From Mesorhizobium sp. YC-39 (GTDB lineage Bacteria; Pseudomonadota; Alphaproteobacteria; Rhizobiales; Rhizobiaceae), in contig NZ_JAOWPS010000001.1 in assembly GCF_025753795.1 (NCBI RefSeq), positions 868,001 through 932,000 of the forward strand: 64,000 bases of DNA, read 5' to 3'. Under the pieces are notes generated by a model. It saw nothing but the letters and a program-made list of their open reading frames with translations, had not been told where the DNA came from and made no database searches. The first letter of the stretch is position 1; each line of letters opens with the position of its first letter. This document shows, in pieces, positions 5,673-8,492 of the stretch. Both the position numbers and the translations under genes were made by a program.

Positions 5673-6835
5673 CTAGTGGTCAAAATCTGACGCTTGGTGC
5701 CCGAATACCTCTCCCGACCCGTTGCGGAAGTTCCTTAAGACATCGCGTAGTTCTATTGGGTATGTATTGGGATGCGGGCTACGAGCACCGGAGAAATGGG
5801 TATGGCCGAGGTTCTGAATTCTGTCGTTGATGCGATCGGAGGAACCCCGTTGGTTCGACTCGACAGGTTGACGGAACAGGCAGGCGTAAAAGGCACAATC
5901 CTTGCCAAGCTGGAATACCTAAACCCAGGCTTTTCAAAAAAGGATCGTGCGGCGCTGGGAGTAATCGAGGAGGCCGAACGCTCCAGTGTTCTCAAGCCGG
6001 GACAAACGGTCGTCGAGCTAACTTCCGGAAACATGGGCACGGGCCTTGCCATCATCTGCGCGATCAAGGGTTACCCATTCGTTGCGGTGATGTCGAAAGG
6101 CAACTCGGAAGAGCGTGCGCGAATGATGTGCGCGCTCGGTGCAGAAGTGATCCTCGTCGACCAGTTGCCGGAGTCAGTGCCGGGTCAAGTGTCGGGCGGC
6201 GATCTGGCGCTCGTTGATCAGACTGCCAAGAAGGTAGCGGCAGAACGTGGCGCGTTCCGCGCGGATCAATTCAATCGGGATGGAAACTGGCTTGCGCATT
6301 ACCATAAGACCGGACCGGAAATTTGGGACGCCAGCCACGGAGCTGTCAATGCATTCGTGGACTTCATCGGTTCGGGCGGAACTTATGCGGGAGTCACAAA
6401 GGCGCTCAAAGAGCGCAGCCCTCTGATCAAGTGTTTTATCGTCGAGCCCGAGGGTGCTGCTGCCGCAGCGGGTGAGAAGATCACACAAGCCGAGCATCCG
6501 ATCCAGGGTGGTGGCTATTCAATGCCTGACCTGGCTTTCCTTAAGAACGTACCTGTCGATGGCTACCTTCAAGTGTCCGGTGATGAGGCGCGCCAGACCG
6601 CCCATTTGCTCGCGCGCAGTGAGGGCATTTTCGGCGGTTTCTCATCCGGTGCCAATGTTGCCGCTGCACTTCGCCTCCTTGCCGGCGAGGAATCAGGGAA
6701 GACCGTAGCCGTCGTGATTTGTGATTCAGGCCTGAAATATCTGTCAACTGACCTCTGGTGTTGAAAAGAGCGGGCGGCGTTGCTGTCCGCTTTCCACCCA
6801 ATGCGGGCCTACGGTTCCAGATTTTGACCACTAGG
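5673..6835. mobile_element. Putative cassette with terminal inverted repeats around a cysteine-synthase-like gene
   Basis: CTAGTGGTCAAAATCTG (5673-5689) recurs as its exact reverse complement at 6819-6835. Inside each 17-bp repeat, after nine unmatched bases, a second similar box appears (GCCCGAAT left, GCCCGCAT in the right-end orientation), as expected for two-box transposon ends. The outermost CTAG is self-complementary, so it could be a 4-bp target duplication rather than part of the ends. The 1163-bp unit holds one gene and no transposase. Codon use inside is visibly less G/C-ending than in its neighbours. The mobile-element reading is inference. Confidence 0.55.
5802..6764 (+). CDS. Cysteine synthase-like PLP enzyme (CysK/CysM family)
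   Basis: Fold-type II PLP enzyme of about 320 aa, related to O-acetylserine sulfhydrylase. The PLP lysine is K47 in NPGFSKKDR (usual form NPSGSVKDR). The substrate loop is TSGNMGTGLA (usual TSGNTGIALA), the phosphate-binding glycine loop is GSGGTYAG, and EGIFGGFSSGAN and CDSGLKYLST match the family C-terminus. The start at 5802 is preferred because GGAGA (5790-5794) is correctly spaced; ATGs at 5772 and 5796 are alternatives. The motif differences make a side reaction or different acceptor possible, so cysteine synthesis is not certain. The gene stands alone inside a 17-bp inverted-repeat pair and looks foreign by codon use. Confidence 0.85.
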   Translation: MAEVLNSVVDAIGGTPLVRLDRLTEQAGVKGTILAKLEYLNPGFSKKDRAALGVIEEAERSSVLKPGQTVVELTSGNMGTGLAIICAIKGYPFVAVMSKGNSEERARMMCALGAEVILVDQLPESVPGQVSGGDLALVDQTAKKVAAERGAFRADQFNRDGNWLAHYHKTGPEIWDASHGAVNAFVDFIGSGGTYAGVTKALKERSPLIKCFIVEPEGAAAAAGEKITQAEHPIQGGGYSMPDLAFLKNVPVDGYLQVSGDEARQTAHLLARSEGIFGGFSSGANVAAALRLLAGEESGKTVAVVICDSGLKYLSTDLWC

Positions 6836-6885
6836 CCGGAGAGAGCCGTAAAGCAGTCAGAATTCTCAGCGCGCTTGCGAGCCGC

Positions 6886-7575
6886 TTATTTGACCGTCTT
6901 GGTGCTCACCGTCACTGGCCGGATCACTGGCGCCGGCGGCAGCAGGGCGCGGATGTCGGCGAAGGGGAAGACCGGCTCGAAGCGAAACGCCTCGGCGAAG
7001 CAGCCGGCCGCGCCATTGCACTGGCCGGCGCGAAACTCGTTCTGCGTGCGCGCCGCCTCGACGAAGCGCTCGGGATCCTGCGATTGATGCGCCAGGATCG
7101 CCTTGGCCTTGAGATCGAAATGCCCTGAAATGTCGACATAGTGCGTCGGCGAAAAACCGGTGCCGCCGAGCGTGTCGGCATGCAAGACAGGGACTGCGAA
7201 AGACGCCGCGATGCGCACGCCATCCGACAGCGCGCGATGGTCGCCATGGTAGTCGTTCGGCGCATGGGTGATCGCCAGATCCGGCTTTACCTCGCCGATC
7301 AGCGCTTTGAGGGCTGCGATCAGGGTGGCATCGGCAATCAGCACACCATCCGGGAAGTCGAGAAAGTGTGGCGTGGCGCCAAGCAGGCCCGCCGCGGCCA
7401 TCGCTTCCTCGCGCCGGGCGCGGGCGAGCGCTGCCGGATCGCCATGGCCGCCCCTGGCCCCATCCGTGGCTATCGCAAAAATCAATTCTGCGCCTTGCGT
7501 GGCATAGGCCGCCATCGTACCGAACATGAAGATCTCGATGTCGTCGGGATGCGCACCGAGCGCCAATATTTTCAC
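6886..7575 (-). CDS. PIG-L family (LmbE-like) deacetylase
   Basis: Zinc-dependent N-acetyl-sugar deacetylase superfamily member, 229 aa. The metal motif AHPDD is at residues 8-12 and the second motif is HAPNDYHGDHRAL. A GTG start at 7575 is chosen because AGGGAGAG lies just upstream and because it places AHPDD at the usual distance from the N-terminus; the open frame further upstream would overlap the divergent exporter gene. Substrate unknown; family members act on GlcNAc-type sugars and thiol-sugar conjugates. It is divergent from the EamA gene with only 26 bp between start codons. Confidence 0.88.
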   Translation of the reverse strand: MKILALGAHPDDIEIFMFGTMAAYATQGAELIFAIATDGARGGHGDPAALARARREEAMAAAGLLGATPHFLDFPDGVLIADATLIAALKALIGEVKPDLAITHAPNDYHGDHRALSDGVRIAASFAVPVLHADTLGGTGFSPTHYVDISGHFDLKAKAILAHQSQDPERFVEAARTQNEFRAGQCNGAAGCFAEAFRFEPVFPFADIRALLPPAPVIRPVTVSTKTVK

Positions 7576-7601
7576 TGCTCTCTCCCTGGAAATGGAAGAA
7601 C

Positions 7602-8492
7602 GTGACGAACGGAATCCTGCTCGCCCTGATCGCCTATGCAAGCTATTCGTGCAACGATGCCGTTGTCAAAAGCCTGGGCGGGCAGTTCACCGTGTTCGAG
7701 ATCGGCTTCTTCTCGACGCTGTTCGCCGGCTTTTTCATGCTCTTCACCAGGCCGAACGGTGAGCGCTGGCGCGATTTCTGGCGCACCAAGCGGCCCTGGG
7801 CGGTGCAGGCCCGCGCCTGGGCCGGCATCGCGTCCGGCGTGCTCAGCGTCTATGCCTTCACCACCATCCCGCTGGCTGAGGCCTACGCGCTGATCTTCCT
7901 GGCGCCGCTCTGCGTCACCATCCTTTCCACCCTGATCCTCAAGGAGAAGGTCGGCCCCTGGCGTTGGGCGGCGGTGATTGCCGGCTTCGCCGGCGTCATG
8001 CTGGTGGTCAGACCTGGCTTTCGCGAACTGCATCTCGGCCATCTCGCCGCCTTCTGCGTCGCTTTCCTTGCCGCCGCCAGCGTTATCCTGATGCGATCGC
8101 TTGCCCAGCAGGAAAAGCGCACGACCATACTCGGTGTGCTGATCGGCTACGGCCTGCTCTTCAATGGCATCGGCGCCGCGGCCACTTCGTTCACGCTGCC
8201 GGACGCCAGGCAATTGGTATGGTTTGTCATATCCGGCGCCTTCACCTCCTGCGGGCAGCTGCTGCAGTTGCTCGCCGTCAAATACGCGCCCGCCAACCGC
8301 ATTGCGCCGACGCATTATTCGCAGATCGTCTGGGCGGTGATCCTCGGAGCGCTGTTCTTCCAGGAATATCCGGACGCACTATCGCTCGTCGGCCTCGCCG
8401 TCGTCGGCGCTTCTGGGCTGCTGACCATGGTGCGCGAGGAGGTGCGGCTCGGCACCGTCCGCTGGAATCCGTTCACGCGCACGAGGCTGTGA
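7602..8492 (+). CDS. EamA/DMT family transporter
   Basis: Inner-membrane drug/metabolite transporter of 296 aa with about ten hydrophobic segments arranged as two EamA repeats (about residues 3-135 and 145-285). Typical patterns are YAFTTIPLAEAYALIFLAPL in the first repeat and the NRIAPTHYSQIVWA segment in the second. The GTG start at 7602 follows GGAAGAA. Substrate cannot be predicted. It is divergent from the PIG-L gene, and hrpB follows after about 50 bp. Confidence 0.9.
   Translation: MTNGILLALIAYASYSCNDAVVKSLGGQFTVFEIGFFSTLFAGFFMLFTRPNGERWRDFWRTKRPWAVQARAWAGIASGVLSVYAFTTIPLAEAYALIFLAPLCVTILSTLILKEKVGPWRWAAVIAGFAGVMLVVRPGFRELHLGHLAAFCVAFLAAASVILMRSLAQQEKRTTILGVLIGYGLLFNGIGAAATSFTLPDARQLVWFVISGAFTSCGQLLQLLAVKYAPANRIAPTHYSQIVWAVILGALFFQEYPDALSLVGLAVVGASGLLTMVREEVRLGTVRWNPFTRTRL

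Follow-up and report, generated by a model that had tools for sequence, protein, structure and literature searches.

A putative mobile insertion cassette with IS630/IS870-type ends carries a cysteine-synthase-like gene in Mesorhizobium sp. YC-39

The cassette in the window

We analyzed a 64,000-nucleotide stretch of Mesorhizobium sp. YC-39 (contig NZ_JAOWPS010000001.1; hereafter the window), in which a cysteine-synthase-like gene is enclosed by short inverted repeats. The original prediction had drawn this unit from a perfect 17-bp repeat pair, and the exactness of the pair and the left arm at 5673-5689 (+), CTAGTGGTCAAAATCTG, were as it had stated. The right arm, the exact reverse complement of the left, lies one base lower than proposed, at 6818-6834 rather than 6819-6835, so that the whole cassette runs from CTAG to CTAG over 5673..6834 and is 1162 bp long, not 1163 bp (it stands as L260 in our list of end pairs). 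With three or fewer mismatches allowed, CTAGTGGTCAAAATCTG matched the 64 kb twice, at the two cassette arms; shuffled controls (n = 100) gave a mean of 0.03 matches and not one shuffle with two. The same two arms, and no further match, were found in the whole window genome (42 contigs, ≤2 mismatches).

Both termini were defined by alignment with the family of ends described below. On the + strand, the left terminal repeat (5673..5701) agrees with the family consensus CTAGTGGTCAAAATCTGACGCTTGGTACC at 28 of 29 positions and opens an A-type end (5673..5720), which includes the conserved subterminal AATACC..CCCGACCC and is 6 bp shorter than its aligned relatives, the missing bases falling in the subterminal box. 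Compared with six aligned family members, the B-type right end (6794..6834, − strand) has lost 13 bp from its terminal repeat, just after CTAGTGGTCAAAATCT. A second box, nine bases inside each arm, had been proposed as part of a two-box transposon end. Its letters are present, but they are not homologous at the two ends: the left GCCCGAAT corresponds to ..GGTACCCG[ATGCGG]AATACC.. minus 6 bp, and the right GCCCGCAT corresponds to ..CCGTAGGCCCGCTCAGG.. after the 13-bp deletion. Alignment with family members thus showed the two-box architecture to be a misalignment, and we rejected it.

Between the ends, we found one credible open reading frame (ORF), at 5772..6764 (+), in line with the single gene predicted. 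Its 330-aa translation has a PALP/cysteine-synthase fold by Pfam and is a cysteine-synthase/beta-cyanoalanine-synthase-like pyridoxal phosphate (PLP) enzyme; the SKKDR, TSGNMGTG, and GSGGTYAG motifs reported earlier are all in it. Because relatives of the protein indicate a later start, translation likely begins at 5796 or 5802, giving 320-322 aa. The solved chain closest to the 5802-6764 product was 6pmu, a beta-cyanoalanine synthase entry that we take to be the mite enzyme (E = 1.5e-83), with solved cysteine synthases ranking after it at ∼1e-56. Given 6pmu as the best match, cyanide detoxification is a possible passenger function. One report assigns a bacterial origin to an arthropod enzyme of the beta-cyanoalanine/cysteine synthase kind (PMC4011162). 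The GC content of the cassette is 0.57, and no match to a simple sigma-70 promoter consensus was present within it on the + strand. From their translations, the flanking ORFs presumably encode a sugar ABC-transporter binding protein-like and a PIG-L-type deacetylase-like product.

Recurrence of the ends around other cargo

The ends recur in other genomes, around other genes and in many genera. With one mismatch or none, the 17-mer was found in 25 of 150 genomes (window genome included), all of them among the 90 Mesorhizobium and none among the 60 other genomes; for 5 of the 25, the sole match lies in an IS110-like context that is described last. The full family end, CTAGTGGTNAAAATCTGACGCTTGGTACC, extends beyond the 17-mer, and in many rhizobial members it is followed by a subterminal sequence of either type A (CGATGCGGAATACCTGTTCCGACCC) or type B (GGAGCCGTAGGCCCGCTCAGGGTGG). 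A 24-base end pattern that leaves the CTAG free, run against a genome contig database, matched 41 stretches from metagenome-assembled genomes and 13 named genera: Mesorhizobium, Aminobacter, Rhizobium, Ensifer, Sinorhizobium, Microvirga, Methylobacterium, Nisaea, Novosphingobium, Sphingobium, Sphingomonas, Acidisoma, and Propylenella, all of which are Alphaproteobacteria. The pattern also occurred in two viral contigs. In a class-wide sample, it matched 9 of 385 genomes, the window genome included, and the reversed-pattern control gave none among the matches listed.

When the loci from the end searches were scanned at a threshold of at least 20/29 matches per end, we obtained 40 distinct convergent pairs, 102-6506 bp long (median 1204.5 bp). 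Counting neighboring ends within 7 kb in any orientation, 39 arrangements were convergent (one of them through the shared CTAG in L056) versus 6 others, and 14 pairs combine one A and one B end, each at 17/25 or better. By blastn, no two pairs except L054 and L068 have over 150 bp in common, so the 40 pairs hold 39 distinct interiors. Two pairs, L048 (a second copy of the L070 element) and L103, were excluded, each having one end below 20/29. Three were included although one end lacks CTAG, namely L074 (6.5 kb, one end CCAG), L092, and L094; these may be chance pairings or decayed.

The cargo is varied. An interior ORF had a Pfam match in 25 of the 40 pairs, in 24 above the curated cut-off. 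The matches include nitronate monooxygenase with a berberine-bridge-type oxidase, epoxide hydrolase with SelR, a cyclase/ATPase, a Rieske-cyclase, sulfotransferase, aldo-keto reductase with TetR, O-methyltransferase, a metallo-beta-lactamase fold, M28 peptidase, alpha/beta hydrolase, and the PALP enzyme of the window; also among them are AAA ATPase, DUF1254/1214, Crp regulators, MFS with MgtC and PAP2, ankyrins, GFA, SnoaL/DUF4440, a TonB receptor, and DUF5677. There was no Pfam match for L054, L059, L061, L095, L116, and L119. L068, which carries the L054 cargo, was itself outside the scan, as were eight small or gene-poor units: L053, L056 (7269-7861), L086, L088, L099, L107, L110, and L121. 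No intact transposase of the cassettes' own was found in the ORFs listed and searched, which leave those eight units unscanned.

Two arrangements bear on how the units relate to one another. At L056:6026-7861, two cassettes abut and have a single CTAG in common. At L039:6211-10900 (M. caraganae) and L046:1491-4299 (M. norvegicum), different cargo occupies the same site, with flanks 95-98% identical and ∼100 bp in common at each end. Read from the sequences, the latter case demonstrates that fixed ends can enclose differing cargo, through either recombination or loss from a larger composite.

Three further observations concern individual pairs. A ∼49-bp direct repeat (98%) brackets the AAA-ATPase cassette at L048/L070 at a distance, its copies lying ∼430 bp ahead of the cassette and 415 bp beyond it. 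The end pair at L121:6109-6210, only 102 bp long, leaves no room for a gene and is possibly a miniature form. On a Rhizobium plasmid, the SnoaL-type cassette at L118:6001-6834 overlaps with what is annotated as the start of a VirA-like sensor kinase.

Presumed insertion at CTAG and the relation to IS630/IS870

The original prediction had suggested that the outer CTAG could be a target duplication. When ends were sought with a pattern in which CTAG was not specified, 33 of 43 distinct ones proved to begin with it, and both ends begin with it in 28 of 40 pairs; the ten bases outside the ends show little conservation. Joined-flank searches recovered the orthologous site of the sister cassette L054 uninterrupted in two genomes, as a single CTAG in G039 and as CTAA in G025. 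These end statistics and the single-CTAG empty site uphold CTAG as the target, and across the family they follow the IS630/IS870 pattern of insertion at the TA within CTAG. In the window, the limits of the cassette are the left CTAG at 5673..5676, whose central TA was presumably duplicated at insertion, and the right CTAG at 6831..6834, placed by the arm match and by the same statistics. For the IS630-type element ISY100, one report describes cut-and-paste movement into TA with TA duplication (PMC2170065), and a title in its reference list concerns an IS630-associated transposon that prefers the TA in CTAG.

Elements that do encode an IS630-type transposase (DDE_3) were found in Mesorhizobium, and they end in CTAGTGGAT.GAATCTAAC.C.TGGTGCCC. 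In one of them, L127, the transposase is divided between two ORFs that overlap, and the terminal CTAG supplies the TAG with which its reading frame stops; IS870 likewise needs CTAG to form its own stop codon. Relatives found by tblastn carry the names IS630 and IS870, and L127 and all six plasmid-borne IS870-group members compared (6/6) extend from CTAG to CTAG. Of the 27 bases past the CTAG, 16-21 in the 3' ends of seven IS870-group elements are identical to those of the cassette end, against a mean of 6.8 and a maximum of 18 in 200,000 shuffled comparisons. A direct link between cassette and insertion sequence (IS) comes from the L056 cassette at 6026-7272, which carries metallo-beta-lactamase-fold cargo and whose left end encodes the C-terminal 53-59 residues of an IS870-group transposase (61-72% identity). 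A DDE_3 (IS630) remnant is present in the L059 cassette at 6783-8385 (L152). The other 38 pairs gave no IS630 remnant by tblastn with the transposases of L127 and five IS870-group elements, a search that remnants of other subgroups could escape, as that of L059 did.

Two other candidate helpers were rejected. The cassette at L104:5704-7255, with an M28 peptidase, contains an IS that we take to be of the IS1182 type; its transposase (Pfam DUF772/DDE_Tnp_1) is bounded by ends of its own, GGCTGTGTGAGAAC/GTTTTCACACAGCC. An IS701-type transposase (PF13546) matched in 3 of 6 genomes, with no cassette-like end at 18/29 or better at those loci.

Because the window unit contains no DDE_3-type transposase, which a member of the IS630 family has inside it, we do not file it as an IS. 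Nor is it a composite transposon flanked by two full IS copies, since the window has ∼50-bp ends only. Mobile insertion cassettes (MICs), such as MIC231 and its kin from the IS4/IS231 family, have IS-type ends and a passenger gene in place of a transposase. The window unit has terminal inverted repeats that resemble the 3' ends of a known IS type better than its 5' ends, and carries the PALP gene only, and on its sequence we file it as a MIC with IS630/IS870-type ends. It is like MIC231 in its IS-type ends, passenger gene, missing transposase, and presumed movement in trans, but differs in that the ends are of the IS630/IS870 type, the target is CTAG, the hosts are Alphaproteobacteria, and 39 distinct interiors occur on one kind of end. 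MIC231 is mentioned in the reference list of PMC2266710 and in PMC4133298. With IS870, IS630, and Tc1-mariner elements, the cassettes have in common the CTAG boundaries and related terminal repeats; unlike them, they have no intact transposase, and their ends form a distinct class. The Tn3-derived TIMEs and TIME-COMP of Pseudomonas are described in PMC4133298 as transposase-free, mobilized in trans, and able to carry genes, features that the cassettes share (mobilization in trans presumptively). They have 38-bp Tn3-type ends, duplications of 5-6 bp, and composite forms with a whole mini-element on either side. The present cassettes, in contrast, have single ∼50-bp ends flanking the cargo. Integron gene cassettes are defined by an attC site and an integrase platform. 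The present units resemble them in often holding one gene each, in their varied functions, in their common flanking signals, and in being able to abut (L056), but their ends are inverted and lie at scattered CTAG sites, and no integrase platform was seen. No integrase was noticed among the listed cargo ORFs, in which no dedicated search for attC or integrase was made.

Source of the passenger gene, proposed movement, and alternatives

The passenger gene was found in 20 of 146 members of the genus (E values up to 1e-120), and on this comparison what the cassette carries is one copy of a gene that other members also possess. None of the 19 other carriers had cassette ends within 1.5 kb of the gene. 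In 18 of the 19, the gene lies beside genes that we recognize, from their proteins, as presumably pyrD and a MATE gene, and the window genome has this pyrD-MATE locus without the passenger gene. In G033, the gene is at a third place, where it has in common with the cassette only the gene itself, ∼50 bp upstream, and ∼18 bp downstream; this segment, 5753..6782 (+) in the window, is likely the captured piece. The database copies nearest to the cassette gene product are 97% identical, and no relative of the passenger gene was found in viral contigs. As to the window locus, 27 of 29 orthologous loci have both neighboring flanks and no cassette, and only the upstream flank was detected in the remaining 2. 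The original prediction had tied its rejection to repeats absent from other genomes and to orthologues of the gene at the same locus without them; what we found were recurring repeats, with the genus orthologues at other loci.

Together, we consider it probable that the window unit is a passenger-gene cassette, cut and pasted into CTAG by an IS630-family (IS870-group) transposase acting in trans. The recurring ends with different cargo bear out the non-autonomous cassette of the original prediction, and its mobilization in trans is what we infer. In the proposed series of events, a passenger would be picked up from a chromosomal copy and come to lie between two ends; an IS870-group transposase would recognize both ends and excise the unit, which would then insert into CTAG with duplication of the central TA. 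The window copy may now be stranded, given the 13-bp deletion in its right end and a genome in which we found no intact IS630 transposase.

Several observations weigh against this account. Transposition is deduced from the sequences, and no movement was observed. The empty-site comparison that succeeded for L054 gave no reading at the window's own site, where the orthologous intergenic region is too diverged. Related IS elements run from CTAG to CTAG, but we found no autonomous IS630 element with exactly cassette-type ends, IS870-group 5' ends match weakly (11-14/27, except 19 in Methylocystis), and the window genome yielded only a 66-position DDE_3 fragment. The gene phylogeny called for by the original prediction, a protein tree of all 20 genus copies and 13 database proteins, places the cassette copy outside the main pyrD-linked clade and groups it, with weak support (87/57), with G033 and the database copies. 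The ends are widespread but infrequent across the class. In addition, 54 distinct end sequences have no partner at the 20/29 threshold, although for 26 of the 54 the sequence available on the inner side spanned 3 kb or more; solo or decayed ends are thus common.

The ends might instead serve mainly as homology arms, with homologous recombination between existing ends spreading the cassettes and exchanging their cargo, transposition being ancient or rare. The L039/L046 pair, with its common site, flanks, and ends around different cargo, fits such exchange; however, the other listed cassettes lie mostly in different flanks, the single-CTAG empty site and the conservation of CTAG point to transposase insertion, and ∼29 conserved bp are short for homologous recombination. 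We regard this explanation as unlikely. A recombinase of another, unrecognized kind, rather than IS630, could also act on the ends and a CTAG core, given that the cassette ends form a consistent class of their own whose A and B subterminal boxes were unseen in the IS870-group ends compared. To this we attach a similarly low probability, in view of the base-for-base similarity to IS870-group 3' ends from CTAG onward, the common CTAG boundary, and the transposase tail inside the L056 cassette. Equally improbable to us is that the units are decayed IS630 elements whose transposase was occasionally replaced by a host gene, as independent accidents rather than as a mobile pool. The transposase tail of L056 and the DDE_3 remnant of L059 are what such decay might leave, but the A- and B-type cassette ends are far more alike mutually than to the IS870-group ends compared, and the other 38 pairs lack an IS630 remnant detectable by tblastn, within the limit for other subgroups given above. 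That the gene is simply a chromosomal one which an inverted repeat happens to surround is refuted by the recurrence of the ends around other genes. The shuffled controls, none of which had two matches, and the orthologous loci without the unit also speak against it, and we give it practically no credence.

Returning to the passenger-gene cassette moved in trans, a wider proposal can be made, although only tentatively and at less than even confidence: that a shared alphaproteobacterial pool exists of mostly single-gene cassettes with standard A/B IS630-type ends, which could capture nearly any chromosomal gene, insert at CTAG, chain via a shared CTAG, swap cargo, and borrow transposases, in an integron-like manner without integrase or platform. 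If true, this would be an unlabeled route by which single metabolic, regulatory, and other genes move between alphaproteobacterial species, and annotation pipelines would miss such cassettes, which have no transposase gene as a giveaway. The 29-bp ends are a searchable tag, so that direct tests are possible of what the full cargo comprises, how often the cassettes move, and which transposase acts as helper. We found no description of such cassettes among the titles and abstract openings listed by searches of open-access literature, which did not extend to subscription papers or ISfinder.

Finally, eight of the 17-mer matches (L044 at ∼8092, L041, L043, L047, L063, L066, L072, and L073) read CTAGT[T/G/C]GTCAAAATCTG and then continue into a different conserved stretch, ATGGAGT..GATGCCC... 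Matches in this context entered the end list only at 20/29 or better, which was the case for L066, as an unpaired end. In L044, the stretch leads to an ORF that we take to be of the IS110 type, as if an IS110-like element targeted the cassette end.
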